Source: Acidimicrobium ferrooxidans
GTDB taxonomy: Bacteria; Actinomycetota; Geothermincolia; Fen-727; Anoxymicrobiaceae
Length of the DNA: 64,000 nucleotides
Reading direction: 5' to 3'
NCBI GenBank assembly: GCA_020723485.1
Contig: DYIU01000001.1
Location: forward strand, 434,001-498,000
Part shown: positions 1,160 through 23,613 of the stretch, piece after piece
Numbering within the stretch: the stretch's first letter is position 1
Layout of the letters: the number at the start of each line of letters is the position of its first letter
Notes under the pieces: generated by a model
Database searches by the model: none
Seen by the model: only the letters and a program-made list of their open reading frames with translations
Told to the model about the DNA's origin: nothing
Made by a program: the position numbers and the translations under genes

Positions 1160-1240
1160 CCTCCTCACAGCTGCATTTGGTTACCTGCGGTAACGGACTA
1201 CAGCCGACAAATTGCTTCACCAGAGAAAGGGTCAAAAACC

Positions 1241-1933: not shown

Positions 1934-1942
1934 CTCTTGGTT

Positions 1943-3220
1943 TCAACCGTGCTTGAGATGCCTTCTCGGCACGAACGTGTTGACCGCCCTGCCCTCCGAC
2001 ATCTCTCCATGCAAGTCTGCTTGACCTTCGTACCAGCTGGCATACCTGTTAGACCCCCACCAGGCGGTAAGACCATGCAGAAGGATGCTCAAGCCCACGG
2101 TAACCGCCATTATCGTGACTATCAGTTCCGTGCCGGGGAGCTTCGCCTCCTCTATTATGATGCCGGCAAAGACTATGGACGCCAGGCCGCGAGGGCCGAA
2201 CCAGCCCATGTACAGCAACGACGGCCAACGGGTATTCGAACGGACCATCGCCAGCGCAACCGGGACCATCCGCACTATTGTAAGACTCAAGGCCGCGTAG
2301 AGGACGATCTGCCAGGTGAGCCCGCCGATGGCTGAGCTGAGGATGGCGTTTCCGAAGACGAAGAAACTTAGCACTACCAGTATCTGGCCGAGCGCGTCCG
2401 GGAATTCTTTCAAGTCAGTAACCTGCTCGCGCACAACAAGCCCGAAGACGAAGCCTGCGACCCAGGCGGAGATAAAACCACTCCCTTCGAACGGGACGGC
2501 CAGCGCGTATGCAAGTGCGGCCAGTGCCGCGACCCCTACCTGCAACCAGACGGAATCAGCCCATTTCTTCAGTTGAGCGACGGCAGCGAGCTTTCCTCCC
2601 AGCCAGCCCACCGCGATACCGATGAGTCCGGACAAGACAATCGTTTTCACGATAAACCAGATAGCCTGCCCGCCGGTCTGGCCGTGCGTGGCGACCTCGG
2701 TCCCGGCGATCAGCAGCATGACTATCGGGAACACTATTCCGTCATTCAGCCCGCTCTCCACGTTCAAGCCCTGGCGGATGCTCAGTGGTACGCGGGGATT
2801 GGAGATGACCGCCAGCCCCAGGGCGGCATCGGTGGGGGCAAGTATCGCCCCGACCAAGGCAGCCTCCCAGACATCCAGCTTGCCGAAGAGCACCAGCGCC
2901 GCGATGAATCCCAGGACTATGGTCAAGGGAAGGCCTATTCCGAGCAGCCGCTCCGGTATGTAAGCCTGCTTTCGCCATGACTTGGCGTTGACGCTCATGG
3001 CATCCGTGAACAGGACAAGCACCAGGGTGGCTTCCAGCAGAGTCTTGACGACCTCCGGGTCGGCCGAGAGCTTGACCATGTCAAGACACTTGGGCCCGAT
3101 TATCAGGCCCAGGGCGGTGAAGATGATGGGACCGGTCAGGAACGTCCTGCTCAGTCGGCCGGAGAAAACCGCGTAGATGAAGATCAGCACTGCCAGGACG
3201 GCAAACCAGTAGGCGTTCAT
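1943..3220 (-). CDS. CPA1-type Na+(K+)/H+ antiporter, NhaP-like
   Basis: This 425-residue membrane protein has about twelve hydrophobic helices over its whole length. It carries hallmark CPA1 motifs: APTDAALG around residue 127 and NVESGLNDG around residue 152, whose ND pair is the ion-binding site in NhaP/NHE exchangers. The product would exchange cytoplasmic Na+ or K+ for protons across the inner membrane, serving pH and salt homeostasis. Length is normal for NhaP proteins lacking a long regulatory tail. A GAGGTGA ribosome-binding site lies just upstream of the ATG at 3220. Downstream, 9 bases away, is a hypothetical membrane protein. Ion specificity cannot be read from sequence. Confidence 0.9.
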   Translation of the reverse strand: MNAYWFAVLAVLIFIYAVFSGRLSRTFLTGPIIFTALGLIIGPKCLDMVKLSADPEVVKTLLEATLVLVLFTDAMSVNAKSWRKQAYIPERLLGIGLPLTIVLGFIAALVLFGKLDVWEAALVGAILAPTDAALGLAVISNPRVPLSIRQGLNVESGLNDGIVFPIVMLLIAGTEVATHGQTGGQAIWFIVKTIVLSGLIGIAVGWLGGKLAAVAQLKKWADSVWLQVGVAALAALAYALAVPFEGSGFISAWVAGFVFGLVVREQVTDLKEFPDALGQILVVLSFFVFGNAILSSAIGGLTWQIVLYAALSLTIVRMVPVALAMVRSNTRWPSLLYMGWFGPRGLASIVFAGIIIEEAKLPGTELIVTIMAVTVGLSILLHGLTAWWGSNRYASWYEGQADLHGEMSEGRAVNTFVPRRHLKHG

Positions 3221-3276
3221 CCCGTCACCTCAAGTGGAGACCGCAATAAGGTCTTTATTTCCGATGACTCACAACA

Positions 3277-5703
3277 TCACTGCCGTGACATGGCAACGCG
3301 TATCAGTTCCTGCGGGTCGATCTTATGGCTCTCGTCGTCTTCGCCCGCATTTATCTGCACGAGCTCGATCTTGCCGTTGAACCTGCTCGACTCTCCGCTG
3401 TAATCGGTGCTGACAGGCATTCCGAAGTCCTCGCCGATATCCGTGGTCTCGTCGGCGGAGAAGATGATCGGGTGCGTTGCCGGGATCTTGCCCTCTCCGA
3501 CCTTCTTACCGTCGCAGTAAAGCGTCACGTCTCCTCCTTTGCCCAGGCCGCCGCCTTCATAGGCGAACTCCATGCGGACCTGGTGACTTCCTGGAGGTAT
3601 CTGTTCGGCAGCCTCGACCGGGAACTCATGCAGGCCGAGCACGTTATAGGTGAATTTCAGCTTGCCTTCCAGCGCGTAGAAGACCCAGCCTCCGAAGTGG
3701 CCTCCCTGGGCGATGATCACCCCCTGGCAGGGCTCCTCGGGAGCCACGATCTGGGCGGTGACCGACCAGGACCTGTTCTTGATGTTGATGACGCTGTTCT
3801 CGGACAGGCGCTTCATGCCTGGGAAGAAGAGCTGCGAGGTGCCTTGGACCAACTGTGGGCGCCCGGCCATATCAGGATCTATGCGCTCGACGCCGCGGTC
3901 GTCCAGCGGCAGTACGTTATACCTCACAGCTTCGATGAGGAACAGGCGCTGAAGTTCGTGGAGTTTCTCGGGCATCTCCTTGGAAAGGTCCCGCGCCTGG
4001 CTCCAGTCCTTGTTGCCGTCGTACAGCTCCCATGCGTCGTCGTCGAACTCAGGCAGCTTCGGCCCTCCCATGAGCTCCCAGGGCGTGCGGTGCTTTGTGA
4101 CCGCGCTCCAGCCCTTGAAGTAGATGCCGCGGTTGCAAAACATCTCGAAGTACTGCAGGTCGTGGCGCTCCGGCTCTTCGGCGTCGTTGAAGCTGTAGAG
4201 CATGCTCGTCCCTTCCATGGGGGACTGCTGCACTCCTTGGACGAAGGTAGGCTCGGGAATCCCCGCGGTTTCCAGGATGGTCGGAGCCACGTCGATGCAG
4301 TGCGTGAACTGGTTGCGCATGCCGCCCTTCTCTTCGATGCCTTTCGGCCAGTGGACTATCGTGCCGTTGCGCGTCCCGCCCCAGTGCGAGGCCACCTGCT
4401 TGGTCCACTGGTAAGGGGTGTCCATGGCCCACGCCCAGCCCACGGCATAGTGATTGTACGCCTCGGGTGTACCCAGCTTATCCATCACGGAGATCATGTA
4501 CTCGGGGGTTTCCAGGTGTGCCGCCCCGTTGAAGTTCGCCATCTCGTTGAAAGCACCGTTGAGGGTTCCCTCCGCGGAGGCCCCGTTGTCCCCGATGATG
4601 TAGTAGATGAGGGTATCGTCCAGTATTTCGAGTTGCTCGATGGCGTCGATGACCCGGCCTACGTGGTAGTCGGTGTGCTCCATGAAACCGGCGTACACCT
4701 CCATCTCGCGCTCCAGGACCGGTTTCAGTTCGTCAGGCATGTCGTCCCAGGCGGGTATAACATCGGGCCTCTTCGTCAGTTCCGCGTCCTCGGGGATGAC
4801 GCCCAGTTCCTTCTGCTTCTTGATGGTTATCTCGCGCTGCCTGTCCCAACCGTGCGCGAACTTGCCTTTGTACTTGTCGGCCCACTCGGGTGGCACGTGG
4901 TGCGGGGCGTGGGTCGCGCCGGGCGCGAAGTAGACGAAGAACGGCTTGTCCGGCATGAGCGCCTTCTGCGACCGGATCCAGTCGATGGCGCGGTCGGCAA
5001 GATCTTCGGTGAGGTGGTATCCCTCCTCGGGGGTCTTCTCCGGCTCGACCGGGTTGGTCCCCTCGTACAGCGCGGGGTACCACTGGTTGTTCTCGCCCCC
5101 GATGAAGCCGTAGAAGTACTCGAACCCTCCGCCGCCCGAGGGCCACATGTCGAACGGCCCCATCGGTGATGACTGCCAGACCGGCACTTCGTGGCACTTC
5201 CCGAACTGTGCTGTCGAGTACCCGTTGTACTTCAGTGTCAGGGCCAGCGGCGCCTTGGTGTTGGGCGTGAGGGAGGTCTGCCCCGGCGCCGACGTCGCGG
5301 TTTCCGTTATGTTGCCCATGGCGACGGAGTGGTGGTTACGGCCCGTCAGCAATGCCTTTCGGGTCGGTGCGCACAGTGCGGTGGTGTGGAAGCGCGTGTA
5401 TTTGAGGCCGCCTCCAGCGAGCTTCTCAGCCGCAGGAGTTTCGCATGGTCCGCCAAATGCGCTCGCTGCACCGAAGCCGGCGTCGTCCAGCAGGATCACC
5501 AGGACGTTTGGCGCACCTTCCGGCGGCATGACTGGTTCGATAGGAGGGAACTTAGTGTCGGGGTCTTTCGCATCATAAGTGATAAGACCCCAGCTGGGTT
5601 GGTCTGGGATCGGCAGGACCGAGCGCTGGATGCCTCTCGAATCACTTGGCACAGCAGTCACTTCCCTTCGAACTGAGCCGGATGATCTGCGGTCATTCCC
5701 CAT
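3277..5703 (-). CDS. Type I arylsulfatase (formylglycine-dependent)
   Basis: The 808-residue protein has an N-terminal metal-binding LLDDAG (D73-D74) and the sulfatase signature CAPTRKALLTG, where C111 is the residue converted to formylglycine in cysteine-type sulfatases. The second sulfatase motif reads GKCHE instead of the common GKWHE. A later DNGAS supplies another metal ligand. Residues from about 640 on form a beta-rich region like the C-terminal sandwich of AtsA-type enzymes. No signal peptide is evident, so it is probably cytoplasmic. It should hydrolyse a sulfate ester; the substrate is unknown. The ATG used (5703) has no clear Shine-Dalgarno, and TAGAAT directly precedes it, so translation may begin further in. 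No formylglycine-generating enzyme is visible in the window. Confidence 0.92.
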   Translation of the reverse strand: MGNDRRSSGSVRREVTAVPSDSRGIQRSVLPIPDQPSWGLITYDAKDPDTKFPPIEPVMPPEGAPNVLVILLDDAGFGAASAFGGPCETPAAEKLAGGGLKYTRFHTTALCAPTRKALLTGRNHHSVAMGNITETATSAPGQTSLTPNTKAPLALTLKYNGYSTAQFGKCHEVPVWQSSPMGPFDMWPSGGGGFEYFYGFIGGENNQWYPALYEGTNPVEPEKTPEEGYHLTEDLADRAIDWIRSQKALMPDKPFFVYFAPGATHAPHHVPPEWADKYKGKFAHGWDRQREITIKKQKELGVIPEDAELTKRPDVIPAWDDMPDELKPVLEREMEVYAGFMEHTDYHVGRVIDAIEQLEILDDTLIYYIIGDNGASAEGTLNGAFNEMANFNGAAHLETPEYMISVMDKLGTPEAYNHYAVGWAWAMDTPYQWTKQVASHWGGTRNGTIVHWPKGIEEKGGMRNQFTHCIDVAPTILETAGIPEPTFVQGVQQSPMEGTSMLYSFNDAEEPERHDLQYFEMFCNRGIYFKGWSAVTKHRTPWELMGGPKLPEFDDDAWELYDGNKDWSQARDLSKEMPEKLHELQRLFLIEAVRYNVLPLDDRGVERIDPDMAGRPQLVQGTSQLFFPGMKRLSENSVINIKNRSWSVTAQIVAPEEPCQGVIIAQGGHFGGWVFYALEGKLKFTYNVLGLHEFPVEAAEQIPPGSHQVRMEFAYEGGGLGKGGDVTLYCDGKKVGEGKIPATHPIIFSADETTDIGEDFGMPVSTDYSGESSRFNGKIELVQINAGEDDESHKIDPQELIRVAMSRQ

Positions 5704-5904: not shown

Positions 5905-6516
5905 CTAAGGCTGCAGTCCGCGGAGTACCACGTGGAGATATCGCTCTCCAGCTTTCAACAGGTCGAATGATCCGTTTTGAAGGCACCAGTCGTAAACAAC
6001 TCCTCTTATGCCTTGTATGAGTATCTCCGAGATTTCCATCTCAGTCATGTCCTTACGGATTTCCCCGGTATCCTGGGCATCCTTGACCAGTCCCTCCGTT
6101 ATCCCATACAGCGCTCGCTTTGGTGAGGCGACCGGCGACCCGGTAATGCTTGGCCCTATCTGACTGTGATATGCCACCTTAATGACATCGATTCCCTGGT
6201 CGTTTATGTATTCCAAGGCGAGACTGAGAAATTCGTGCAGCTTGTCGGTGTTACTCTTCTTCTTCTTCTGAATCTTCTTGAGCGATTCTTTGTAGAAATC
6301 ATCAATTGTTAGGAACTCCTCCAATACTATCTGGTTCTTGGATTTAAAGAGGTTGTAGAAAGTGCTCTTGGCAACTCCGGCCTCTTCACATATTTCATCG
6401 ACGGTCACGCTATCGTAACCTCGATCTCGAAAGAGCTCCATGGCAACCTCAAATATGATCCGGCGGGTCTCCAGCGAAAACTGTTCCCGGCGCGTCAACC
6501 TGGTAGCCTGAGCCAT
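5905..6516 (-). CDS. TetR/AcrR-family transcriptional regulator
   Basis: The 203-residue protein has a classic N-terminal TetR helix-turn-helix: IFEVAMELFRDRGYDSVTVD, then EICEEAGVAKSTFYNLFKSK (residues about 18-60). A variable helical ligand domain follows. The gene is transcribed divergently from the thiolase operon starting at 6750. The space between them contains two copies of a GTACTA(A/T)AGTA(C/T) palindrome overlapping a possible promoter. By analogy with the family it most likely represses the divergent operon until an acyl-CoA or aromatic ligand binds. The ligand is not inferable. The 200 bases between its stop and the arylsulfatase start hold no gene I can support. Confidence 0.9.
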   Translation of the reverse strand: MAQATRLTRREQFSLETRRIIFEVAMELFRDRGYDSVTVDEICEEAGVAKSTFYNLFKSKNQIVLEEFLTIDDFYKESLKKIQKKKKSNTDKLHEFLSLALEYINDQGIDVIKVAYHSQIGPSITGSPVASPKRALYGITEGLVKDAQDTGEIRKDMTEMEISEILIQGIRGVVYDWCLQNGSFDLLKAGERYLHVVLRGLQP

Positions 6517-6620: not shown

Positions 6621-6749
6621 CGACCTAAAGCAGGTACCTTGAGCACCACACATGCTTCGGAGTCATACGCTCTCAAGTCTCGAGACGGCCGCGCGCTGTT
6701 TCGCAAGCGCTCCGCTATCCGGCTTGAGAATAGAATGGATGGGGGAAAG

Positions 6750-7994
6750 ATGAGTGATGACGTCTACATCGCGGGCATCGGGATGACCCGCTTCGCCAAG
6801 TACCCGGAGAAAAGCGTCAAGCAGCTTGCGGCTGATGCTCTCGATGCCCTCATGAAGGACCTGCCCGTGGAGAAGAAGGACATGGAGGCGGCCTGGTTCA
6901 GCAATTCCGTGTGGGGCTACTTCTTCGGCCAGGAGACCATCAGGGGCCAGGTGGCTCTCACGCCCCTCGGTATCCAGGCCATCCCGGTAACCAACGTCGA
7001 GAACGCCTGTGCGGGCGCCTCGACCGCGGTGCATCATGCCTGGATGAGCGTGAAGGCCGGGCTCTACGACGTGGTGCTCGCCATGGGCGCCGAGAAGCTC
7101 TTCCTGCCTGACGACCCTGTCAAGATGTTCAAGGCGTTCATGTCAGGGGTGGACATGGAGCAGGTAGAAGCGATGATCGCCGAGATGCAGGCCGAGGCCC
7201 GGAAGAAGGCAAAGGAATCCGGAGCGGAAGGCAAGGAGAAACAGGGCGGCCATTCGGCGTTCATGGACATCTACGGCATGATGGCGCGCGATCACATGGA
7301 CCGCTACGGCACCACCCAGCGCCAGCTCGCCGTCATCTCATCCAAGAACCACCACCATGGGGCGATGAACCCCCTGGCCCAGTACCGGAAGGACATGACC
7401 GTCGAGGAGGTCCTGGAGGACCGCGTAGTCGCCTATCCCATCACGAGGTCCATGTGCGCGCCCATCGGGGACGGAGGCACGGCGGCGATCATCTGCTCAG
7501 AAAAGGGCTTGAAGAGGTTCCCGGACGCGCGCCCTGTAAAGATCAGGGCCTCTATCCTCACAGCAGGTTCCACCCGGGACAGCGGTTTCGACCCTGTCGG
7601 GGTGCGTGCGGGCAGGCTGGCTTACGAGCGGGCAGGCCTCGGTCCGGAGGACATTGACGTTGCCGAGGTCCACGACGCCACGGCCTTCGGCGAGCTCTGG
7701 CAGTACGAGAACATGGGTTTCTGTCCCGAGGGTGAAGGAGGGCCGTTCGCCGAATCCGGGGCGACCGCGCTGGGGGGCAGACTTCCCGTCAATACCAGCG
7801 GGGGGCTGGAATGCCGGGGCCACCCGATCGGCGCCTCCGGCATCGCTCAGATGCACGAGCTCGTGATGCAGCTGCGGGGCGACGCCGGTCCCCGCCAGGT
7901 GGAGGGCGCCCGGATAGCACTGGCAGAGAACGGCGGCGGCTTCATCGAGTCGGCGGAGGCGGCCATGTGCGTACACGTCCTGGAGAGAGTCTAG
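6750..7994 (+). CDS. Thiolase-family acyl-CoA acyltransferase (SCP2/SCPx-like)
   Basis: Starting at the ATG at 6750, preceded by a purine-rich GGGGGAAAG, the product has 414 residues. It contains the thiolase nucleophile motif NACAGAS (C87) and the C-terminal GLECRGHPIGASG, whose His is catalytic in thiolases. The C-terminal second-Cys region is replaced by AENGGG, as in SCP2-type and archaeal-type thiolases. A charged insertion, rich in Lys and Glu, lies around residues 147-167. The enzyme would cleave a 3-ketoacyl-CoA with CoA, or run the reverse condensation. It is the first gene of the operon divergent from tetR and is followed after 33 bases by a CoA ligase, which fits beta-oxidation-like degradation. 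An upstream in-frame extension to 6579 exists but lacks a ribosome-binding site. Confidence 0.88.
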   Translation: MSDDVYIAGIGMTRFAKYPEKSVKQLAADALDALMKDLPVEKKDMEAAWFSNSVWGYFFGQETIRGQVALTPLGIQAIPVTNVENACAGASTAVHHAWMSVKAGLYDVVLAMGAEKLFLPDDPVKMFKAFMSGVDMEQVEAMIAEMQAEARKKAKESGAEGKEKQGGHSAFMDIYGMMARDHMDRYGTTQRQLAVISSKNHHHGAMNPLAQYRKDMTVEEVLEDRVVAYPITRSMCAPIGDGGTAAIICSEKGLKRFPDARPVKIRASILTAGSTRDSGFDPVGVRAGRLAYERAGLGPEDIDVAEVHDATAFGELWQYENMGFCPEGEGGPFAESGATALGGRLPVNTSGGLECRGHPIGASGIAQMHELVMQLRGDAGPRQVEGARIALAENGGGFIESAEAAMCVHVLERV

Positions 7995-8027: not shown

Positions 8028-9389
8028 ATGGACGACAACCGGCCTTACTGGAACATGGAAGTCGAGACAAAGCTCAACACCCCGGAGATGCGGGAGCTCC
8101 AGCTGGACAAGCTGAGGGTCATGTTGAGAAGGCTCGACAACAATGCACCCTTCTATTCAAAACAGTTCAAAGAGCTCGGGGTCGACCCGGACAAGATAAG
8201 CAGCTTTGAGGAGTTCGGCAAGCGCGTCCCCGTATTCGACAAGGAGGGCCTGCGGGCCATGGTCGTGGAGTTCGGGGGAGACCTCCTGGCCGTCCTGGAC
8301 CAGATAATGCCGGTATCTGTGGACGACCTGACCATCATGGCGACCACCACGGGTACCACCGGCATCCCCACGCCTTACCCCATGACATGGCACGACATGG
8401 TGGACCTGTGGGGCGAGGCTATGGTGCGGGGCGCCTGGCGGGCGGGTATCCGTTCCAAGGACCGGATACTCTTCTGTTTCGCGCTCTCGATGGTCATCGC
8501 CGGCATCCCGACAATGATGGGCATGCACAAGCTGGGCTGCATGGCTATCCCGGTGGGTGCGGAGGCTGGCACAGACAGAGTGCTCCTGATGCAGAGCCTG
8601 TTCAAGGGAACCGTTTACTCGGGAACCCCTTCCATGGCCGATTACCTGGCCGAGAAGGTAAAGTCCCAGGGCAAGGACCCGAAGGATCTCGGTCTTCGCA
8701 TCCTGATGTGCGGCGGGGAACCCGGTGCGGGCATCCCCGAGGTACGAGAGAGGCTCGAGTCGGCCTACGGAGCGCGCCTGTTCGACGCGGGCGCCGGGTT
8801 CGGGTACTCCTGCGACCACGAGGAGTACCAGGGTATGCACTGGACCGCCGACGACCTCGCCTACTACGAGCTGGTCGACCCGGACACGAAAGAGCCCATT
8901 CCGCTCGAGGACGGGGCCGAAGGGGAGGCTCTGTTTACCATAATCGACGGGGACGGCATGGCCTGGGTGCGCACCAGTCTGGGCGACATACAGCAGGTCT
9001 TCACCTCCCCGTGTCCGTGCGGAAAGACGGGCATCCGATACAAGGTGGTCGGCCGGACGGACGACATGCTCAAGGTGAAGGGGGCCATCGTCTATCCCAC
9101 CATGGTGGAAGGAGTGGTCGGCTCCTTCGTCCCCAGGGTCACCGGCCAGTTCCGCATAGTGCTCACCGAGAAGCCGCCGCGCGTGATACCGCCTCTCAAA
9201 GTGAAGATCGAGTGCGCCGAGGACTTCCCTGAAGACAAACTCCCGCAGCTCGAAAAGGAGATGAAAGAGACATTCCACAACAAGACCAAGTGCACCCCGG
9301 AGATCATCTGGGCGGAGGCCGGCGAGCTGGAGCGCTCCACTTACAAGGGCAAGGTCTTCGAGAAGCTCTACGAGGAACAGAAAGCATAA
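8028..9389 (+). CDS. Phenylacetate-CoA ligase-like adenylate-forming enzyme
   Basis: The 453-residue product matches the PaaK branch of the adenylate-forming superfamily. It has ATTTGTTGIPT (P-loop-like ATP motif, residues about 105-115), a central CGGEPGAG, and the C-terminal hinge GRTDDMLKVKGAIVYP followed by a small lid domain. Such enzymes activate an aryl or other carboxylic acid with ATP to an acyl-AMP and then to the CoA thioester. AGGAGG-type spacing upstream (GGAGGCGGGAC) supports the ATG at 8028. It sits between the thiolase and a nitroreductase-family gene, so it probably supplies CoA esters to the pathway. The substrate could be an aromatic acid but is not determined. Confidence 0.88.
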   Translation: MDDNRPYWNMEVETKLNTPEMRELQLDKLRVMLRRLDNNAPFYSKQFKELGVDPDKISSFEEFGKRVPVFDKEGLRAMVVEFGGDLLAVLDQIMPVSVDDLTIMATTTGTTGIPTPYPMTWHDMVDLWGEAMVRGAWRAGIRSKDRILFCFALSMVIAGIPTMMGMHKLGCMAIPVGAEAGTDRVLLMQSLFKGTVYSGTPSMADYLAEKVKSQGKDPKDLGLRILMCGGEPGAGIPEVRERLESAYGARLFDAGAGFGYSCDHEEYQGMHWTADDLAYYELVDPDTKEPIPLEDGAEGEALFTIIDGDGMAWVRTSLGDIQQVFTSPCPCGKTGIRYKVVGRTDDMLKVKGAIVYPTMVEGVVGSFVPRVTGQFRIVLTEKPPRVIPPLKVKIECAEDFPEDKLPQLEKEMKETFHNKTKCTPEIIWAEAGELERSTYKGKVFEKLYEEQKA

Positions 9390-9414
9390 GAGCCGGATTG
9401 CGGGGGGGTTGCAG

Positions 9415-10161
9415 ATGACTGAATCAGAGAGACTGCTGACAAAAACCGGGCAAGACGAGTTGGTCTACCCGCAGGGCGACGATTGGAATGAGGTCGAAGG
9501 GGTGATCCTTCGCAGGAGGAGCGTCCGCAACTACCAGGACAAGCAGGTGCCGGAGAACGTGATACTCAGGCTTATCGAGATGGGAAGGTTCGCCCCGTCA
9601 GCGGGCAACTCTCAGCCCTGGAAGTTCGTCGTCATCAGGGACAGGCAGATGATCGACGAGATGAACGACTTCGCCCAGAAGATGGCCAAGATCTTCAATT
9701 TCCTTCTCAACTGGAGGACCAGCCCGATCGGGAAGAAGCTGGCCATGCTCGACTCGCAGCTGATGATCCGCCTTCAGCCGAACATCCTGGCCCCCGTTCC
9801 GTTCGGTGCGGTCGACCTGCTGGCGACAGGTAAGCTCAAGCTCTTCCATAATGCGCCGACCGTCATATTCATAATGAGCGACCGTCGTGGAGTGGGAAAG
9901 CCCCAGGTGGACGTAGGTATCGCCGGGCAGAACATAGTCCTCGCCGCCCACAGCATGGGCCTCGGCACGTGCTGGATAGGGTTCATCGAGCTCTTGAAAT
10001 ACAGCCGGAAGTGGATGAAGAAGCTCGGCGTCCAATACCCCTACAAGATGTGCGAGGCCATCGCCATCGGATACCCGGTGGGCGAACCCGACGGTCTTGT
10101 GGAAAGGGAGACCCAGGCGATCTACTGGCACGAAGACGGCCGAGAGAAGCTCCTCTACTAG
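9415..10161 (+). CDS. Nitroreductase-family FMN flavoprotein
   Basis: The product (248 residues from the ATG at 9415; a TTG two codons earlier is also possible) has the FMN-binding N-terminal RRRSVRNYQDKQV and the RFAPSAGNSQPWKFVV segment typical of nitroreductase-fold proteins. The later GIAGQNIVLAAHSMGLGTCW is also characteristic. Family members use NAD(P)H or ferredoxin to reduce nitro groups, quinones, enones or flavins. Here the next gene is a small dicluster ferredoxin, so a ferredoxin-linked reduction of a pathway intermediate is plausible. An insertion with the sequence MAKIFNFLLNWRT lies around residues 83-95. Precise reaction unknown. Confidence 0.88.
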   Translation: MTESERLLTKTGQDELVYPQGDDWNEVEGVILRRRSVRNYQDKQVPENVILRLIEMGRFAPSAGNSQPWKFVVIRDRQMIDEMNDFAQKMAKIFNFLLNWRTSPIGKKLAMLDSQLMIRLQPNILAPVPFGAVDLLATGKLKLFHNAPTVIFIMSDRRGVGKPQVDVGIAGQNIVLAAHSMGLGTCWIGFIELLKYSRKWMKKLGVQYPYKMCEAIAIGYPVGEPDGLVERETQAIYWHEDGREKLLY

Positions 10162-10227: not shown

Positions 10228-10557
10228 ATGGCATACCTGAGTCTGCGCGAGAGGTTCAAGATCCCGGTCTATGACAGAGAGGCAGAGATGTCGTGGTCTG
10301 AGGTGAGTGTAGACGACGAAACCTGCGACGGCTGCGGTATCTGCGTGAAGATCTGCCCGTCCAGCGCGCTGCGCCTGGTGGGAACGGGCAAGGAGAAGAA
10401 GCCCCGCATGATAGAGGGATATCACAACTGCATTGCGTGCAATGACTGCGCCGCTATCTGCGGGAAAGACGCAATCGCGGCAGTCGCTCCAATAGAATCC
10501 ACCTTCTACTACAAGAGATTAGACCATGGGGACCTGACGCCACCTCGCAGATATTAG
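10228..10557 (+). CDS. Small 2[4Fe-4S] ferredoxin
   Basis: The 109-residue product has two complete cluster motifs: CDGCGICVKICP and CIACNDCAAICG. Each has CxxCxxCxxxC spacing, as in bacterial dicluster ferredoxins. An N-terminal extension of about 30 residues precedes the first cluster. An AGAGGGGGC sequence precedes the ATG. It is placed between the nitroreductase-family gene and two large iron-sulfur proteins, and probably carries low-potential electrons among them. The gap to the next start codon is only 6 bases. Confidence 0.92.
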   Translation: MAYLSLRERFKIPVYDREAEMSWSEVSVDDETCDGCGICVKICPSSALRLVGTGKEKKPRMIEGYHNCIACNDCAAICGKDAIAAVAPIESTFYYKRLDHGDLTPPRRY

Positions 10558-10563
10558 CGAAAG

Positions 10564-11763
10564 GTGAATGCATTGGCGACGGACAGCGAATTTCCATGCG
10601 GCTCAGCCGGAGCCCTCACCGGCGTATCCAGAGCGCATATGGCCGTAGTCGCCAACTACGCCAATCCCGTAGTGCTCGGTCCACCCGTGTGCGGTGAGCT
10701 GGTGGCTCTGATAGAGCAGATGTACAGCGAGGAAGAAGCCGAAATAATGCAGCATATCAAACCTTACAGGGCAAGGTCGGCGCAGGGGCTCGCGAAGCAG
10801 TGCGGCAGGCCGCTTGAAGAGGTTGAGAAAATTCTGCACCGTCTAGCATATGAGAAATGCACCCTGATCACCTTCAATGTGGGCAGCAGGGACCTCTACT
10901 TGATACTGCCAATCCACCCAGGCACATTTGACCTGATCTTTATCGGAGCAGAGCCCAGGGAGATGACCGACTGGCACCGGCGCTGCGCGGAGCTCTATGA
11001 GAGCCTATTCTATACGGGATTCCTGAACGAGTACGTGGGCAATAAGCCCATAGATGCCGTCCGCGTCCTTCCTATCGGAGAGGAGATCGAGAACACCCAG
11101 ATCGCGCTTCCTTCCGACCGCCTGGAGGTCGCCCTTGATAGGTTCGAGGTGTTCGGACTGGCCACTTGCTGCTGCCGCCAGGCCAAGCGCCTCGCGGGCG
11201 GCACGTGCAAAAAAGAATTGGAGACGTGCGTCGTGATGGGTGGCCTTGCCGAGATGTTCATAAAGCAGGGGCGCTTTCGGTCGATAAGCATGAAGGACGT
11301 CATAGAGATCAAGGCTGAGGCGGAGAGCAACGGGATGGTCACCTGGTTCAAAAACCAGGAGGGTGGCAAGTTCGGAAACGTTGCCTGCTCCTGCTGCAGT
11401 TGCTGCTGCGGCATCATGCGCACGATATCGCAGTTCAATGTGCCCGGTATGGTGGCACCACCACACTTCATTCCAAAGGTTGATCCGGTGAAATGTACGC
11501 TTTGCGGCAAGTGTGTCGAGGCCTGCCCGGTGAAAGCGGTCTCCCTTATCGAAGATGGGAAGGACAAGCGGCTTGTATTCAAGCAGACACACTGTATCGG
11601 CTGCGCCCTCTGTTTGCGCGCCTGTCCCAGTAGAGCTCGGAGCTTGCAGGGGGTGCCCGGATACGATGAACCTCCCACAGGCTGGCTAGCTTATTTCCGC
11701 CGGTACTTATTCAACTACGCGAGCGATGTATTAGGAGTGAGCAGCTCCCGACGCAAAAGGTGA
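10564..11763 (+). CDS. Winged-helix, CxCCxCCC and dicluster ferredoxin iron-sulfur protein
   Basis: This 399-residue protein (GTG start) has three parts. Residues about 57-128 resemble a winged-helix fold: SAQGLAKQCGRPLEEVEKIL is a plausible helix-turn-helix, followed by a beta wing and a PIHPGTFDLIF linker. The middle part has CCC at 202-204, C215 and C222, then CSCCSCCC at 275-282. The C-terminus is a 2[4Fe-4S] ferredoxin (C311/314/317/321 and C344/347/350/354). The same architecture recurs at 22540-23613 and, without the N-terminal domain, at 11861-12685. I recognise this as a conserved arrangement but know no established function. It could be an electron carrier or a redox-sensing regulator. 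The Cys-rich centre has enough ligands for an additional cluster or metal, which is inference. Confidence 0.8.
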   Translation: MNALATDSEFPCGSAGALTGVSRAHMAVVANYANPVVLGPPVCGELVALIEQMYSEEEAEIMQHIKPYRARSAQGLAKQCGRPLEEVEKILHRLAYEKCTLITFNVGSRDLYLILPIHPGTFDLIFIGAEPREMTDWHRRCAELYESLFYTGFLNEYVGNKPIDAVRVLPIGEEIENTQIALPSDRLEVALDRFEVFGLATCCCRQAKRLAGGTCKKELETCVVMGGLAEMFIKQGRFRSISMKDVIEIKAEAESNGMVTWFKNQEGGKFGNVACSCCSCCCGIMRTISQFNVPGMVAPPHFIPKVDPVKCTLCGKCVEACPVKAVSLIEDGKDKRLVFKQTHCIGCALCLRACPSRARSLQGVPGYDEPPTGWLAYFRRYLFNYASDVLGVSSSRRKR

Positions 11764-11860
11764 GCTGAGCGGTTGTCCAGCCGGCGACAAGTGGATGCGT
11801 ACAGTGGTGTCACGGTCAAGACAGCACAGAGGCGAGACATAGCAGGGCGGTGTTTTGGGA

Positions 11861-12685
11861 ATGCAGATAAGGAAGTATATCCCCCGTCTTCTCCTGGCGC
11901 TCTATCCCCCCGTGTACAGACTGGGGTTCAGATTCGCCTGGCTGACCAGGCTCCCGGTCATCGGGAGACTGTTCGGCGATGTTGTTCTGGACACAAAAGG
12001 GTCCAACGTCAGCTATATTCCGATCCAGGAAAACCTGGAGCTTCCGGAAGGCATGGTCGCCCCGGTAAGCATCATCGAGCATTTCATCCGGGCTTCGAGC
12101 CACAGGTTCATAATGGCGTACTGCCCCTGCAGAAATGCCAACGACTGCGTTAACCATCCGCATGATATCGGTTGTATATGGGTCGGTGGGGCAACTGCCG
12201 ACTTCGATCTGCCTCCCGAGATAGGCAGACTCGCGAGCGTGGACGAAGCGATCGAACATATGCATATAGCCAGGGACGCCGGACTGATCACGGTGATAGG
12301 CAAGTTCAAGCCGGACGCCCTGGTTATGGGGGTGGGGAATGAACACAAGAGATTCATGACTGTGTGCAGTTGTTGCTCCTGTTGTTGCATGGTCAGGGTC
12401 ATGCATAACGGCAAACCGGAGTTCAAGGGGTTGATCCGCAGGCTCCATGGCTTGGCTGTGAGAGTGGACAGGGATGTATGCGTCGGTTGCGGCGAGTGCG
12501 AAGAAGCGTGCCTGTTCGGGCATATTTCACTGACAGACGGCAAGCCGTTCTTCAGCGATGAGTGCAAGGGCTGTGGTTTCTGTGCCCTGGCCTGCCCCAA
12601 TAAGGCAATAAGCATCAAGATCGAGGATCCCTCTTTCATAGAAGAGGCCATATCACGGATCAGTGGCGCAGTAGATGTCACTTGA
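11861..12685 (+). CDS. CxCCxCCC and dicluster ferredoxin iron-sulfur protein (short form)
   Basis: The product (274 residues from the ATG at 11861; an in-frame TTG lies at 11855) is a paralogue of the protein encoded just upstream. It lacks the winged-helix N-terminus and instead begins with a basic, hydrophobic stretch (residues about 1-40), possibly membrane-associated. It has CPCR at 88-91, C96 and C105, CSCCSCCC at 169-176 (identical to the neighbour), and two ferredoxin clusters near the C-terminus: CVGCGECEEAC and CKGCGFCALACP. The ribosome-binding site is weak. Its position before the SDR at 12760 keeps it in the same transcription unit. Function unknown; an electron-transfer partner of the preceding proteins is likely. 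Confidence 0.8.
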   Translation: MQIRKYIPRLLLALYPPVYRLGFRFAWLTRLPVIGRLFGDVVLDTKGSNVSYIPIQENLELPEGMVAPVSIIEHFIRASSHRFIMAYCPCRNANDCVNHPHDIGCIWVGGATADFDLPPEIGRLASVDEAIEHMHIARDAGLITVIGKFKPDALVMGVGNEHKRFMTVCSCCSCCCMVRVMHNGKPEFKGLIRRLHGLAVRVDRDVCVGCGECEEACLFGHISLTDGKPFFSDECKGCGFCALACPNKAISIKIEDPSFIEEAISRISGAVDVT

Positions 12686-12759
12686 TCTGAGGGGTGTACT
12701 CCGGGAGAAGTTTGCTGAGATGAGCAATTGGACTGATGGTCCGGGATAAGGAGGCTTCA

Positions 12760-13611
12760 ATGGGTCGGGTAGATTTTGAGAAGACTGCAGTTATCACCGG
12801 GGCGGCTTCGGGGATAGGAAGAGCATATGCTCTCGCCTGGGCGAAAAGACGCTTCAAGGTCGGGATAGCAGACATCGACATGGAGGGCGCGGAACAGACT
12901 CTCAAGCAGGTGGAGCGGGCGGGCGGCAGCGGAGAGGTATACCGCTGTGATGTGAGGAAACTGGAAGAAGTGCAGCAGATGGCGGATCACTTCTTCGAGA
13001 AGTGGGGCAAGATAAGTCTGCTGGTGAACAACGCGGGTGTGGCTGACGTGGGGATGGTCGGGGATGTCCCCATAGAGGATTGGGAGAGGCAGATCGCTAC
13101 CAACCTCTGGGGGTACATCTACGGGTGCCACTCTTTTATCCCCAGGATGAAGGAACAGCGTGCAGGCCACATCGTGAACACGGCGTCCTCGGCCGGTCTG
13201 ATCACTCTCAGGTCGATGGGACCGTACAATGTTGCAAAAGCGGGGATAATCGCCCTTTCAGAGACCCTGAAGCCCGAGCTTGCGCCTTTCAATATCGGCG
13301 TCACCGTCGTCTGCCCTTCTTTCCTGCGTACGAATCTCCTGAACACCAGTTCGTCGACTGATACGTGGATACTCGATGTCGCTGACATCTGCATGGAAGG
13401 CGCGACGGTCACAGCGGACAGCCTTGCCGAGGCAACGGTCAAAGCGGTGGATAAGAACAAGCTGTACGTCTTCCCCCAGATCTTTGCCAAGATAACCTGG
13501 ATCGACAAAAGGATGTCACCCGCGCTCTTCTACAGCGTGTTTGCTTTCCTGAACAAGAAGGGCTGGGACGAGCCCCTGCTCAAGGCGCTGGGAAAGCATG
13601 GAATGGTGTGA
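12760..13611 (+). CDS. Short-chain dehydrogenase/reductase
   Basis: The ATG at 12760 was chosen because AAGGAGG lies 5 bases upstream; the in-frame ATG at 12736 has no such site. The 283-residue product has the classical SDR cofactor motif TGAASGIG, the NNAG motif, the active-site serine region NTASSAG and YNVAK (Tyr and Lys of the YxxxK pair). A hydrophobic, basic C-terminal extension of about 35 residues follows the core. The enzyme would oxidise a hydroxyl or reduce a keto group with NAD(P). Last gene of the thiolase operon, where a 3-hydroxyacyl-CoA dehydrogenase-like role is a reasonable guess. Confidence 0.9.
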   Translation: MGRVDFEKTAVITGAASGIGRAYALAWAKRRFKVGIADIDMEGAEQTLKQVERAGGSGEVYRCDVRKLEEVQQMADHFFEKWGKISLLVNNAGVADVGMVGDVPIEDWERQIATNLWGYIYGCHSFIPRMKEQRAGHIVNTASSAGLITLRSMGPYNVAKAGIIALSETLKPELAPFNIGVTVVCPSFLRTNLLNTSSSTDTWILDVADICMEGATVTADSLAEATVKAVDKNKLYVFPQIFAKITWIDKRMSPALFYSVFAFLNKKGWDEPLLKALGKHGMV

Positions 13612-18433: not shown

Positions 18434-19822
18434 ATGGCAAAGCTCCCGGTCGTCTCGTCAAAGCCGAAGCTCGCGGTCCAGTACATACTGGACACCGAGA
18501 AGCTGAAGACCGTCCAGGGACTGCGGGGCCTGTTGGGCCGCACGAAGAAAGCGGTGCGCTCGCTCGGCTTCGAGCTCACCGAGTTCGAGCCGGAGATAGA
18601 CGCCGACGCAATCGCGGCCAACGCGCGCTCCTGCACCGGGCCGTACGCCGGGTTCCTCGGGGTCACATTCACCGGTACCTCTGCAAGGCAGACCGCGGCC
18701 ATCGGGGCGTTCCGCGGCCCGGTGGCCGTCTGGTTCTTCCCGGAGACCGAGTGGTGGAGCATGGCCTCCGCGGCCTCGGGGCTGGGCTACCTGCGCGACG
18801 AGGCCGACGAAGACCCGGCCATGAGCGTCGCCGCTGTATGGGGCGACCCTGAGGACCCGGCCGCTCTCGAGCGCCTCGAGCGGTTCGCTCGCGCTGCCCA
18901 CACAGTCTTCGCGATGCGCCGCGAGAAGATAGGGCTAATCGGCGGCTCCTATTACGAGGTGATGCCGGCGAGCAACTGGCACCCTGACACCCTCACCAGT
19001 CGGCTCGGCCCCTCATACACCGAGATCGACATGTCGCTTCTCGTGCGCGAGCTCGATAACGTGAGCGGCGCCGAGATAACCGGCCTCGTGCGCCGCCTGA
19101 CGAACGCAGCCATGAAGCTCCCCGACGACGAGGCTTCCCTGGACGTGGTGAAGCAGTCGGCGCGGGTTGCCCTCGCGGTGGAGCACCTGCAGGAGAGGTT
19201 CGCCCTCACCGGGGTCGCCATGAACTGCTACGGCGGGCCTGACCCTGAGGGCTACACGGGGGTGCTGGGGTGCTGCGGAGCCAGCGGCTGCCTCAAGGGG
19301 CACGCCCTGGGCTCGGTAGTCATAGGCTGCGAGAGCGACGTGGTGCAGACCGCACAGCAGATGATGTTCCGCCACCTGCTGGGGGCCGTCCCCTGCATGG
19401 CCGACCCCTGGATGGTGGACAAGGGCGTGCTGCTGGCAGGAACGTGCGGCGGTCCGGCCGGGCTCGCCCCCGGGCCCGAGGCCGTCGCGATAGAGGCGGG
19501 AACACTGATGAGCCTGTACAAGGTCGGTGTTCTGGGGGTGTGCTTCCCGAAGATAGGGAAGGCCGACGCCATAGTTGCTCGCCTCAAGGGGCGGTGGCTC
19601 GACAGCATGGTGGTCTCCACCGGAGAGTTCCTGGGCTCCGACACGAAGACCATCCCCGGGAGGCTCTGCCTGAAAGTGAAGCTCGACGACCCGGAGGCGT
19701 TCCTCGCCCGCGGGACAGTCGGCAACCACTACACCTTCCTCCCGACGGAGGACCTCGCCCGCGACATGGGCAGGCTCGAGATGCTCTGCGAGCTCATGGA
19801 CATAGAGATCGAATACTGCTAG
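18434..19822 (+). CDS. L-fucose/L-arabinose isomerase-fold protein
   Basis: The 462-residue product has features of the FucI/AraI superfamily (COG2407-like). These are an N-terminal domain with a P/VAVWFF segment, REKIGLIGG (residues about 163-171) leading into the second domain, a Cys-rich GVLGCCGASGC, and GCESDV at 298-303. The last resembles the ACEGD/ACESD metal-binding segment of sugar isomerases. A C-terminal GNHYTFLPTEDL follows. Such proteins interconvert aldoses and ketoses, but many family members of this length are uncharacterised and the Cys-rich stretch is unusual. A good AGGAGG precedes the ATG. The cupin gene follows 8 bases after the stop codon. Confidence 0.68.
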   Translation: MAKLPVVSSKPKLAVQYILDTEKLKTVQGLRGLLGRTKKAVRSLGFELTEFEPEIDADAIAANARSCTGPYAGFLGVTFTGTSARQTAAIGAFRGPVAVWFFPETEWWSMASAASGLGYLRDEADEDPAMSVAAVWGDPEDPAALERLERFARAAHTVFAMRREKIGLIGGSYYEVMPASNWHPDTLTSRLGPSYTEIDMSLLVRELDNVSGAEITGLVRRLTNAAMKLPDDEASLDVVKQSARVALAVEHLQERFALTGVAMNCYGGPDPEGYTGVLGCCGASGCLKGHALGSVVIGCESDVVQTAQQMMFRHLLGAVPCMADPWMVDKGVLLAGTCGGPAGLAPGPEAVAIEAGTLMSLYKVGVLGVCFPKIGKADAIVARLKGRWLDSMVVSTGEFLGSDTKTIPGRLCLKVKLDDPEAFLARGTVGNHYTFLPTEDLARDMGRLEMLCELMDIEIEYC

Positions 19823-19830
19823 GAGGCGCC

Positions 19831-20232
19831 ATGCCTTACGTCGACGCCGGCGGCCTTCCCGCCGCAAACGTGCCCAGGCCGTTCGAGCGCGAGCTCAAGG
19901 TCGTGATGTCCCCCGAGACGCACCCGGACGTGGAGGGCTTCACCCTGCTGTTCTCGACGCTCGCCCCCGCCGGAGGCGGAACCGATACGCACTCTCACGA
20001 GGGCTCGGGGGAGCTCATGGTGGTGGTCTCGGGCCGGGGGAAGGCCTGGCTCGCCGGCGAGGAACACATCCTGAAACCGGGAGCGGCTCTCTACGCGCCT
20101 CCAGGCGTAGAGCACAGGACGCTGAACGAGGGCGGAATTCCCCTGGAGCTAGTCTGCGTCTTCATCCCACCGGCTCCCGCCGACTACATCGAGAAGATGA
20201 TGGCCCAGGCATCGGAGGGGGCCGATGGCTAG
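19831..20232 (+). CDS. Cupin-domain protein
   Basis: The ATG at 19831 is preceded by AGGAGG with 4-base spacing. The 133-residue product is a single cupin barrel with the metal-binding motif DTHSHEGSGELMVVVSG (His, His, Glu) and the second motif PPGVEH. Cupins of this size act as sugar isomerases, epimerases or oxygenases, or as metabolite sensors. Translation is coupled at both ends: 8 bases separate it from the isomerase-like gene, and its last 8 bases overlap the acyl-CoA synthetase start. A shared pathway is therefore likely. Reaction unknown. Confidence 0.88.
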   Translation: MPYVDAGGLPAANVPRPFERELKVVMSPETHPDVEGFTLLFSTLAPAGGGTDTHSHEGSGELMVVVSGRGKAWLAGEEHILKPGAALYAPPGVEHRTLNEGGIPLELVCVFIPPAPADYIEKMMAQASEGADG

Positions 20233-22345
20233 AGACCTGAGCATCGCGGAGTCGTGCAGGAGGGTGAAGGCCGAGGGGGGCACGGTCATACCGGAGCCTG
20301 TCGTGAAGGAGTGGCTCCGCGAGCGCGGGGTCCCGGTGCCCGACGGCAGGCTCGTCGAAACGGCGAGTGAAGCCGTGAGGTTCGCCAACCATCGTTTCTA
20401 CCCGGTCGTACTCAAAATGGTCTCAGACCGCCTGCTGCACAAGACCGAGGTAGGCGGGGTACTCACGGGCATCGAATCCGAGACCGCGCTCTACGAGGCG
20501 TTCGACGATATGACCGAAGCGGCGAGGCTGGCGCGGGATCCGGGCTTCCTGGGCATCCTCGTGGAGGAGCAGCTCCCGGCGGCGCCTGAGATAATCGTAG
20601 GCCTCGACAACGACCCGCACTTCGGACCTGTCCTGATGGTCGGAACGGGGGGCATCTTCACGGACCTCCTGTCCGACGTCTCGTTCCGGATGCTCCCGGT
20701 GAAGAAACGCGACGTCGTGGAGATGCTCTCCGAGCTCAAGGGCAGGCCGCTGCTCGAGGGCTTCCGTGGTTCCGCCCCGGCCGACGTTAAGGCGCTTGCG
20801 GACGTGATTTACGGCATCGCGCGATTCGCCTCCGAGATCGCTCCTTTCTTCGACTCGGCTGACTTCAACCCGGTCCTGGCCCTTCCCGACGGCGCGTGCG
20901 TGGTGGACGCAAAGGTCATGCTGGCGGACGAGGAGCGGCCGCGGCCGTTCGGTTTCGAGAAGCCCAGGGTGCATCACCTGGCCGGTTTCTTTGACCCCGC
21001 CAGCGTCGCGGTGGTCGGCGCTTCCGCGAGCCCCGGCAAGATAGGCAACGTCATAGTCGATTCGCTGGTGAACTACGAGTTCAAGGGGCGCGTTTACCCG
21101 GTCAATCCCAACCGCGAGGAGATCATGGAGGTCAGGTGCTACCCGTCGCTCTCGGAGCTCCCCGAGGCGCCGGAGCTGGCAGTGATGGTGATAGACCTCG
21201 CGGACGGTCCGGGACTCATGCGCGAGCTCGCCGCCATGGGGGTCCACAACATGCTCATCGTGTCGGGCGGGGGCAAAGAGCTAGGGGGCAGGCGTGAGGA
21301 GGTCGAGCTCGAGATGGCGCGGCTCGCCCGAGAGCTCGACATCCGGGTGGTGGGCCCGAACTGCATTGGCGCGTTCGACGGGCGGACCCGCTTCGATTCC
21401 TTCTTCCACCACCACGACCGCCTGCTCAGGCCGCCCGCGGGAAGAATGGGCTTCATCACCCAGAGCGGGACCTGGGGCTGCGGGTTCCTGGAGGCCGCGG
21501 AGGTCGCAGGCGTCAGCAAAATGGTGAGCTACGGCAACCGGGTGGACGTTGACGAGGGGGACCTCATCTCCTACCTGGCGGACGATCCCGAGACCGCCGT
21601 GATCGGGAGCTACGTGGAAGGGCTTTCGGACGGGCGCAAGTTCCTGGCGGCGGCGCGGGAGGCCGTGAAGGCCGGTAAGCCGGTGGTCGTCTTCAAGACC
21701 GGGCGCACCGAACGCTCGGCAAAAGCCGCCGTCTCGCACACGGGCGCGTATGGTGGGAGCTACCGCGTCTACGAGGGGGTGCTCCGCCAGTCGGGGATTA
21801 TAACGGTGGACACGTTCCACGAGCAGATAGCGGCGTGCAAGGCGCTGGCCCTGCAGCCAGCGGCGCACGGGCCGCGCGCCGCGATGCTCTCCAACGGGGC
21901 CGGTCCGATGGTGAACGCGCTCGACCTCTTCCCGTCGAAGGGGCTGGAGCTCGTCAAACTGAAGCGCGGCTCGGTACGCTCCATGCGAGACCACTTCAGC
22001 TTCTTCTACCTGGTGGAGAACCCCGTGGACGTCACAGGGTCGGCATCCTCCGAGGACTACGAGTTCGTGATAAGGACGCTGCTCGAGGACGACCGGGTCG
22101 ACATCATCATGCCCTACTTCGTCTTCCAGGACACGCCTCTCGACGAGGGCATAGTGGAGAGGCTCGAGAAGCTGCTGCGCGGAGCGAAGAAGCCGGTCGT
22201 GGGATGCGCGGCGGGCGGCCCCTACACGAAGAGGATGTCAGACGCGCTCGAGGCCATCGGCGTGCCGGTGCTGCCCGACGTCGCCCAGTGGGTCGCCGCG
22301 GCGGCCGCCCTGGTGCGCTGGGGCGCCATCAAGAAGAAGTCATAA
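20225..22345 (+). CDS. Fused acyl-CoA synthetase (NDP-forming), beta-alpha order
   Basis: The 706-residue product combines an N-terminal ATP-grasp domain (residues about 15-235; HKTEVGGV is a hallmark) with a CoA-binding Rossmann domain (about 250-345; VAVVGASASPGKIGN) and the succinyl-CoA-ligase-like domains that follow. The catalytic-histidine region reads SHTGAYGGS. Here beta comes before alpha, whereas many bacterial fusions have alpha first. The enzyme links an acyl-CoA plus ADP and phosphate to a free acid plus ATP, conserving energy at the end of an anaerobic degradation. It starts inside the cupin gene. Its substrate is not known but probably derives from the ThDP enzyme and isomerase upstream. 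Confidence 0.88.
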   Translation: MARDLSIAESCRRVKAEGGTVIPEPVVKEWLRERGVPVPDGRLVETASEAVRFANHRFYPVVLKMVSDRLLHKTEVGGVLTGIESETALYEAFDDMTEAARLARDPGFLGILVEEQLPAAPEIIVGLDNDPHFGPVLMVGTGGIFTDLLSDVSFRMLPVKKRDVVEMLSELKGRPLLEGFRGSAPADVKALADVIYGIARFASEIAPFFDSADFNPVLALPDGACVVDAKVMLADEERPRPFGFEKPRVHHLAGFFDPASVAVVGASASPGKIGNVIVDSLVNYEFKGRVYPVNPNREEIMEVRCYPSLSELPEAPELAVMVIDLADGPGLMRELAAMGVHNMLIVSGGGKELGGRREEVELEMARLARELDIRVVGPNCIGAFDGRTRFDSFFHHHDRLLRPPAGRMGFITQSGTWGCGFLEAAEVAGVSKMVSYGNRVDVDEGDLISYLADDPETAVIGSYVEGLSDGRKFLAAAREAVKAGKPVVVFKTGRTERSAKAAVSHTGAYGGSYRVYEGVLRQSGIITVDTFHEQIAACKALALQPAAHGPRAAMLSNGAGPMVNALDLFPSKGLELVKLKRGSVRSMRDHFSFFYLVENPVDVTGSASSEDYEFVIRTLLEDDRVDIIMPYFVFQDTPLDEGIVERLEKLLRGAKKPVVGCAAGGPYTKRMSDALEAIGVPVLPDVAQWVAAAAALVRWGAIKKKS

Positions 22346-22539: not shown

Positions 22540-23613
22540 ATGGACGTCTACGAGGAGCTGCGGCAGCACCTGGACAAGCACCCCAGCGGGGCGCCCGAGG
22601 GCCCCGAGATACACGAGATACTCTCGACCTTCTTCACCCAGGAGGAGGCGAAGGTCGCCTGCGGAACCCCCTTCAGGCCGAAGTCGGCCGGGTTCATCGC
22701 CGAGAAGGCCGGGGTGTCCCCCGAGGAGGCGAAAGCCTGCCTTGAGAGCCTTGCGGACAAAGGCATGGTATACGCCCGCGAGAAGAACGGCGAGTGGGGC
22801 TACTCGCTCCTGCCCATAATGCCCGGCATCTTCGAGTTCCCCTACATGAAGGGCGTCCGCGATGAGACGCTCACCCACCTGGCGGAGCTCTGGGAGTCAT
22901 ACCTGGTCAGACACGCGAGAGACATGATAGACGGAGGCACGCCCTTCGCGCGCGTCGTGCCGATCCAGGAAGAGGTCGAGAACGACCCGCGGGTGCTCAC
23001 CTACGAGATGGTGGACAAGCTCATAGACGAGGCGAAGGTGGTGGGGCTCTCGCACTGCGCGTGCCGCACCGCGTTCGCGCACTGCGACGGGCCTCTCGAG
23101 GCGTGCATGCTCTTCGACGACACATGCACATACCTGGTGGACCGCGGCTACGCCCGCTACATCACCAAGGAGGAGATGAAGAGGAAGCTCCGCGAGTTTG
23201 ACGAGATGGGGCTGGTGCACAACGTCAACAACTCCCAGGACAAGCTCCAGTTCATCTGCAACTGCTGCCCCTGCTGCTGTGGTTTCCTGAGGGTGACGAA
23301 AGAGATACGGGCGCCGCACTTCCTGGCCACGTCAGGCTTCATGGCGCGGCTCGATCCCGACCTTTGCACCGGCTGCGCCGTCTGCGAGGAGCGCTGCCCT
23401 ATGGACGCGATCGAGATAGTCGACGACCTCGCGGTGATAGACATGGACCGCTGCATAGGCTGCGCGCTCTGCGTCACCGGCTGCGACACCGGCGCGATGG
23501 ACATGAAACGCCGTGAGGAGATGCCCGAGACGCCCGCCACAATGCCCGAGCTAGCCATCGACGTCCTGCGCAAGCGCGGCAAGCTCGACGAGTTCATCGA
23601 GCTCATGCAGTAG
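22540..23613 (+). CDS. Winged-helix, CxCCxCCC and dicluster ferredoxin iron-sulfur protein, third paralogue
   Basis: GGAGGAG precedes the ATG. The 357-residue product repeats the layout of the protein at 10564-11763. It has a winged-helix-like N-terminus (residues about 25-100, SAGFIAEKAGVSPEEAKACL) and a centre with HCACR at 172-176, C182, C189 and C196. CNCCPCCC follows at 240-247. A C-terminal 2[4Fe-4S] ferredoxin has CTGCAVCEERCP and CIGCALCVTGC. In the Cys-rich octet only the second and fifth residues differ from the other two copies. It stands alone after the ThDP/NDP-forming cluster and is probably its electron carrier or redox-responsive partner; no function is established to my knowledge. 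Confidence 0.82.
   Translation: MDVYEELRQHLDKHPSGAPEGPEIHEILSTFFTQEEAKVACGTPFRPKSAGFIAEKAGVSPEEAKACLESLADKGMVYAREKNGEWGYSLLPIMPGIFEFPYMKGVRDETLTHLAELWESYLVRHARDMIDGGTPFARVVPIQEEVENDPRVLTYEMVDKLIDEAKVVGLSHCACRTAFAHCDGPLEACMLFDDTCTYLVDRGYARYITKEEMKRKLREFDEMGLVHNVNNSQDKLQFICNCCPCCCGFLRVTKEIRAPHFLATSGFMARLDPDLCTGCAVCEERCPMDAIEIVDDLAVIDMDRCIGCALCVTGCDTGAMDMKRREEMPETPATMPELAIDVLRKRGKLDEFIELMQ

Follow-up and report, generated by a model that had tools for sequence, protein, structure and literature searches.

Cysteine-rich ferredoxin proteins as putative redox partners of CoA-ester enzymes in anaerobes

Three genes in the window (the whole 64,000-nucleotide stretch of DNA that was analysed; Table 1) are, on balance, probably members of an undescribed modular iron-sulfur redox family whose proteins would act as partners for CoA-ester enzymes in anaerobes. 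Each of the three products joins a central domain of ten cysteines to a C-terminal 2[4Fe-4S] ferredoxin, and it is because of gene fusions and conserved operons that we assign them a redox role in CoA-ester chemistry. In some Actinomycetota, Desulfobacterota and Asgard archaeal genomes the family reaches 20-30 copies; it is unnamed, its main domain is not modelled in Pfam, and it lacks structural relatives. If its members are true redox partners of CoA-ester enzymes, they would fill a gap in low-potential electron transfer during the anaerobic breakdown of lipids and hydrocarbons.

Table 1. The three family genes and other features of the window, in order of position (aa, amino acids)
Feature	Position	Strand	Details
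Sulfatase-like gene	3277-5703	-	precedes the first cluster; named by sequence appearance
TetR-like gene	5905-6516	-	precedes the first cluster; named by sequence appearance
Thiolase-like protein, lipid-transfer/SCP-x type	6717..7994	+	PF22691, E=3.9e-43
PaaK-like AMP-forming CoA ligase	8028..9389	+	Pfam and NCBIfam matches; homologues adjoin Desulfatibacillum family genes (L220, L223)
Nitroreductase-family flavoenzyme	9409..10161	+	same operon as member 1; PF00881, E=1.3e-34
Small 2[4Fe-4S] ferredoxin	10228..10557	+	directly upstream of member 1; Fer4_9, E=2.3e-09
Family member 1	10564..11763	+	399 aa, long form (winged helix, ten-Cys domain, 2[4Fe-4S] ferredoxin); CCCR, CSCCSCCC; core at about 11386-11409
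Family member 2	11855/11861-12685	+	274-276 aa, short form without winged helix, 2[4Fe-4S] ferredoxin; CPCR, CSCCSCCC; core at about 12365
Short-chain dehydrogenase (SDR)	12736..13611	+	just downstream of member 2; PF00106, E=1e-49
462-aa protein	18434-19822	+	member 3 locus; weak NCBIfam similarity to sulfoquinovose isomerase, no Pfam match
Cupin-like protein	about 19822-20232	+	legible towards the end of mechanical ORF 19270-20232
ADP-forming acyl-CoA synthetase, 3-hydroxypropionate-CoA ligase type	20225..22345	+	upstream of member 3; NF045492, E=5.7e-249, 828 bits, below the cut-off of 1300
Family member 3	22540..23613	+	357 aa, long form (winged helix, ten-Cys domain, 2[4Fe-4S] ferredoxin); CACR, CNCCPCCC

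The ten-cysteine domain and its distribution

In a six-frame translation of the window the pattern C.CC.CCC occurs exactly three times, once per gene, and a Pfam search places two Fer4 motifs in each of the three proteins. Open reading frames, motifs and Fer4 matches thus bear out the original prediction of three genes that combine a CxCR or CCCR element, CxCCxCCC and a 2[4Fe-4S] ferredoxin, with one amendment: the core that it took to be identical, CSCCSCCC, is so in members 1 and 2 only, member 3 having CNCCPCCC, such that CxCCxCCC is the common pattern. Each CxCR element is then followed by two further conserved cysteines that the first reading had missed, and the central cysteines therefore number ten per domain, not six to eight. 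The domain as a whole (C-x-C-R ... C ... C ... C-x-C-C-x-C-C-C) extends over about 110 residues.

Across 155 aligned members, eight of the central cysteines are nearly invariant (C173, C175, C182, C189, C240, C242, C243 and C247, in the numbering of the protein encoded at 22540); the variable positions are C245, which is Asp in 10 members, and C246, which is His in 10. Eight fixed cysteines would suit two [4Fe-4S] clusters, in which case the Cys/Asp and Cys/His positions may provide extra ligands or catalytic residues; the replacements, being mainly to Asp and His, residues also able to bind metal, are counted here in favour of a metal centre. The C-terminal ferredoxin, whose Fer4 matches lie over the cut-offs, keeps all eight of its cysteines (two CxxCxxCxxxC motifs) in nearly all of the 155 members, and this retention, together with the near-invariance of the eight central cysteines, favours the redox-partner reading. 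Bacterial-type 2[4Fe-4S] ferredoxins and the ferredoxin domains of PorD, RnfB, HdrA and FwdF match the C-terminal ~55 residues of the family in both sequence and fold; however, they have neither the central domain nor the winged helix, and the match covers the ferredoxin part only.

The long form (member 3) is modelled as a confident fold (pLDDT 91.5, pTM 0.88), and the central domain modelled alone reaches a pLDDT of 83. PDB matches of the long-form model fall on ferredoxin-like or winged-helix targets only, the remainder being loose alignments of the whole chain. The central domain alone has no match among solved folds (best Foldseek E=0.63, TM about 0.3 or less), none among PDB sequences at E<=10 (hmmsearch) and neither a recurrent nor a significant one in Pfam (60 central domains searched), while NCBIfam matches of the whole proteins all fall within the ferredoxin part, with none for the ten-cysteine region. 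Literature searches for the motif, and broader ones, returned no relevant paper and no description of the family. The suggestion that these proteins form a redox family not described before and bear a metal site in addition to the ferredoxin clusters is accordingly strengthened, in that profile searching gave no characterised family; the size of the family, its Cys/Asp and Cys/His positions and its linkage to hypA-hypB (below) go beyond what had been expected of it.

Searched with a profile of the three proteins, the 3.36-Mb Actinomycetota genome that contains the window (G000) gives about 28 matches extending past the ferredoxin; its paralogues number about 27 in all (23 with the core motif and at least four variants). 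A chance origin of the motif is excluded by these 23 core-bearing paralogues and by the conservation of the ten central cysteines in the 155 members, which come from many phyla. Searches with only the central domain detected the family in all 17 genomes sampled from the window's class (2 to at least 21 copies) and in 18 of 181 genomes of other Actinomycetota (one or two members each). Members are present in 33 of 59 genomes from the phylum of Desulfatibacillum (up to 34 copies) and in 44 of 59 from the phylum of a Helarchaeote (up to 30 copies), and a DNA pattern scan (80 loci, about 17 of them chance matches or truncated) added confirmed representatives in Chloroflexi, Spirochaetes, Clostridia, Bacteroidota, Methanobrevibacter and further taxa. 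Members are frequent among Desulfobacterota, Asgard archaea and additional groups, anaerobes for the most part.

Gene fusions and shared operons

Several members are fused to enzymes. In an 868-aa protein (L249) an entire long-form member comes after an acyl-CoA ligase; in two Schaedlerella proteins (902 and 941 aa, L246 and L247) the family domain precedes a GltD/PRK12771-like NADPH:FAD oxidoreductase; and SDR-family fusions of 611 and 620 aa occur in two Desulfobacterota genomes (L223 and L236), both parts being separate neighbours in L220. GltD/NfnB-like NAD(P)H:FAD oxidoreductases of the PRK12771 type are known without any such domain as part of GltD itself, and the family domain in Schaedlerella is an added N-terminal module. 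Two further long open reading frames (L024, 701 aa; L114, 610 aa) were considered as fusions and dropped, as neither has a second Pfam domain.

Gene order points to the same chemistry. A thiolase of SCP-x type and an acyl-CoA ligase adjoin the family gene in the window and in L220, L223 and L236, the ligase being PaaK-like in all of these except L236, which has another AMP-binding ligase. Family genes are clustered with the BcrAD ATPase and HGD-D proteins of a 2-hydroxyacyl-CoA dehydratase system in L226 and L248, and in a Helarchaeote (L189) they accompany a BcrAD ATPase and an HGD-D homologue. At L262 (5193-15056), at least seven tandem members follow LuxE- and LuxC-like genes and precede a gene resembling those of aldo/keto reductases. 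The proposed link to CoA-ester or acid-activating chemistry thereby stood up, through the acyl-CoA ligase and SDR fusions and through thiolase/PaaK-like operons that the window has in common with Desulfobacterota; fusion to, or a conserved operon with, CoA-ester enzymes is found across phyla.

Among operonic neighbours, FAD oxidoreductases (5 of 99, against 0 of 100 in the control) and AMP ligases (4 against 0) are in excess, each enrichment being individually weak (P about 0.03-0.08, uncorrected). The fusions to ligase, SDR and oxidoreductase, the shared operons, this neighbour excess and the confident fold all favour a redox partner of CoA-ester enzymes. The same reading is weakened by the varied neighbourhoods, by the many solitary copies, by the weakness of the enrichments and by host genomes that are rich in acyl-CoA genes, such that a control with far genes also gave shared acyl-CoA genes.

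In the mechanism that we propose, the ten-cysteine domain would hold one or two metal-sulfur centres, and the C-terminal ferredoxin would relay low-potential electrons between this central centre and a partner flavoenzyme or ferredoxin. Separate copies would serve separate CoA-ester enzymes, namely ligases, thiolases, SDRs, enzymes of the 2-hydroxyacyl-CoA dehydratase type and Mo- or FAD-oxidoreductases. The order of the domains, their conservation, the lack of known relatives of the central domain, the fusions and the conserved operons are observed directly; that the cysteines bind clusters, which way electrons pass and what reaction takes place are, like every functional statement made here, inferred from sequence and genome context.

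Other neighbours recur. A protein verified to combine HEAT repeats with a double 4Fe-4S domain directly adjoins a family gene in one Desulfobacterota genome (L215, 6037-7158), and its homologue does so in a second (L228, 9599-10738). Homologous neighbour genes also lie beside family genes in Desulfatibacillum (L208) and a Helarchaeote (L192), and DUF169 is matched by 2 of 99 operonic neighbours.

Linkage to hypA and hypB

HypB has a known role in the maturation of [NiFe]-hydrogenase with nickel, and Ni-Fe-S enzymes are matured with chaperones, [NiFe]-hydrogenase by HypAB and CODH by CooC (PMC9164220). Genes for HypA and HypB are found beside or near family genes at ten listed loci (L055, L098, L104, L124, L212, L247/L284, L287, L288, L289 and L290), and the linked loci, at least nine, come from Desulfobacterota, Longimicrobiales, Lachnospiraceae and Actinomycetota. 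The HypB proteins of the linked pairs score over the curated cut-off, and HypA has Pfam support in nine of the ten pairs, that of L124 being recognised on sequence features only. Linked members are spread over at least six branches of the family tree, in which the nearest sampled relatives of member 3 include those of L124 and L098. In L287 the gene for an HMA-type P-type metal ATPase (1182-4160) opens the operon, ending about 180 bases before the family gene, which is followed by hypA and then hypB.

The proximity exceeds expectation. In 20 family-bearing genomes, hypB was within 4 kb of a family gene in 7 of 21 cases (expected 0.37), and in 4 of 18 (expected 0.35, P=5e-4) once the two genomes chosen with this neighbour already known were set aside; related genomes in the sample are not independent in either count. 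Four of the five genomes concerned (G039, G042, G048 and G052) are without HypD, [NiFe]-hydrogenase and urease, and urease is absent from all five, in a check of possible clients that covered [NiFe]-hydrogenase and urease. Among Actinomycetota without HypD, hypB is present in 5 of 6 family-bearing genomes against 4 of 84 others, three of the five belonging to one class.

That hypA-hypB stand beside family genes, in several cases where the genome lacks HypD, [NiFe]-hydrogenase and urease, suggests that some members carry nickel. We offer tentatively, as a refinement of the redox-partner reading and not in opposition to it, that these members possess a Ni-Fe-S or Ni-thiolate site loaded by HypA/HypB, to which the ferredoxin supplies electrons. 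Somewhat more doubtful is the fuller proposal of a new Ni-Fe-S centre that HypA-HypB would load in a way unconnected with hydrogenase and urease, that would be fed by its own ferredoxin and that would catalyse redox or acyl-transfer reactions of CoA esters in a wide range of anaerobes. What brings the family close to such chaperone-matured Ni-Fe-S enzymes is that its genes adjoin hypA-hypB in several lineages; no similarity to any of these enzymes was found. Against nickel, most family copies have no hypAB nearby, the linked fusion L247 has lost several core cysteines (CNCAPGVC), a Mo-oxidoreductase gene separates the family gene from hypAB in L124, and the counts draw partly on related genomes. 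Were the nickel link real, it would account for hypA-hypB genes where hydrogenase and urease are both missing, and a further class would join the known nickel enzymes.

The genome of the window itself has a hypA-hypB pair (L271; G000:C11:262626-263264) and is without HypD or urease; its matches to PF00374 are weak and partial.

Other roles for the cysteines and the winged helix

Ferredoxin:thioredoxin reductase (FTR) and HdrB, the latter with noncubane clusters in CCG domains, are cysteine-dense redox centres fed by ferredoxin. An enzyme working in their manner, with an extra cysteine pair adjoining a cluster to reduce a disulfide or bind an acyl group, would account for a number of cysteines above the need of two [4Fe-4S] clusters, for the ferredoxin as electron source and for the CoA-ester contexts. 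We consider it unlikely: the two spare cysteines are Asp or His in about 20 of the 155 members, the family motifs differ from those of FTR and HdrB, and neither protein was matched in Pfam, PDB-sequence or fold searches. The CCG domain in particular (Cx31-39CCx35-36CxxC) is missing from the Pfam matches of 60 members at E<=1.

Less probable again is an ordinary ferredoxin attached to a cysteine-rich domain that has a structural (zinc) or metal-trafficking role and no chemistry of its own. The generic annotation would fit (plasmid relatives are labelled '4Fe-4S binding protein' and nothing more), as would some metal-handling neighbours, but eight cysteines have stayed nearly invariant across phyla despite divergent sequences, and the copies have been multiplied and fused to distinct enzymes.

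The winged-helix-like N-terminus anticipated for two of the three proteins is present in members 1 and 3, on the evidence of weak profile matches (TrmB, DUF7342 or HVO_A0114, all under Pfam cut-offs; TrmB 18.1 bits against 25.6) and of the predicted fold, a helix-helix-helix-strand-strand unit with winged-helix structure matches. TrmB/ArsR winged-helix domains resemble this N-terminal fold of the long forms; the family, in contrast, scores below their curated cut-offs, has a mostly acidic recognition helix (mean net charge -0.7; positive in 27%) and includes short forms without the domain. The winged helix is missing from about 50 of the 155 aligned sequences, some of them truncated, and shows lower conservation than the central domain and the ferredoxin.

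A family of redox-sensing transcription regulators, in which the winged helix binds DNA and the cysteine centre senses redox state or metals, had also been put forward and could draw on this fold and on the frequency of TetR genes as neighbours (7 of 99 against 2 of 100 in the control), but it is the least probable of the readings because the winged helix is optional, less conserved and acidic in its recognition helix and because members are fused to an acyl-CoA ligase, SDRs and NADPH:FAD oxidoreductases; moreover, a sensor needs no 2[4Fe-4S] ferredoxin, and the TetR neighbours are themselves dedicated regulators. Individual long forms could still bind DNA.
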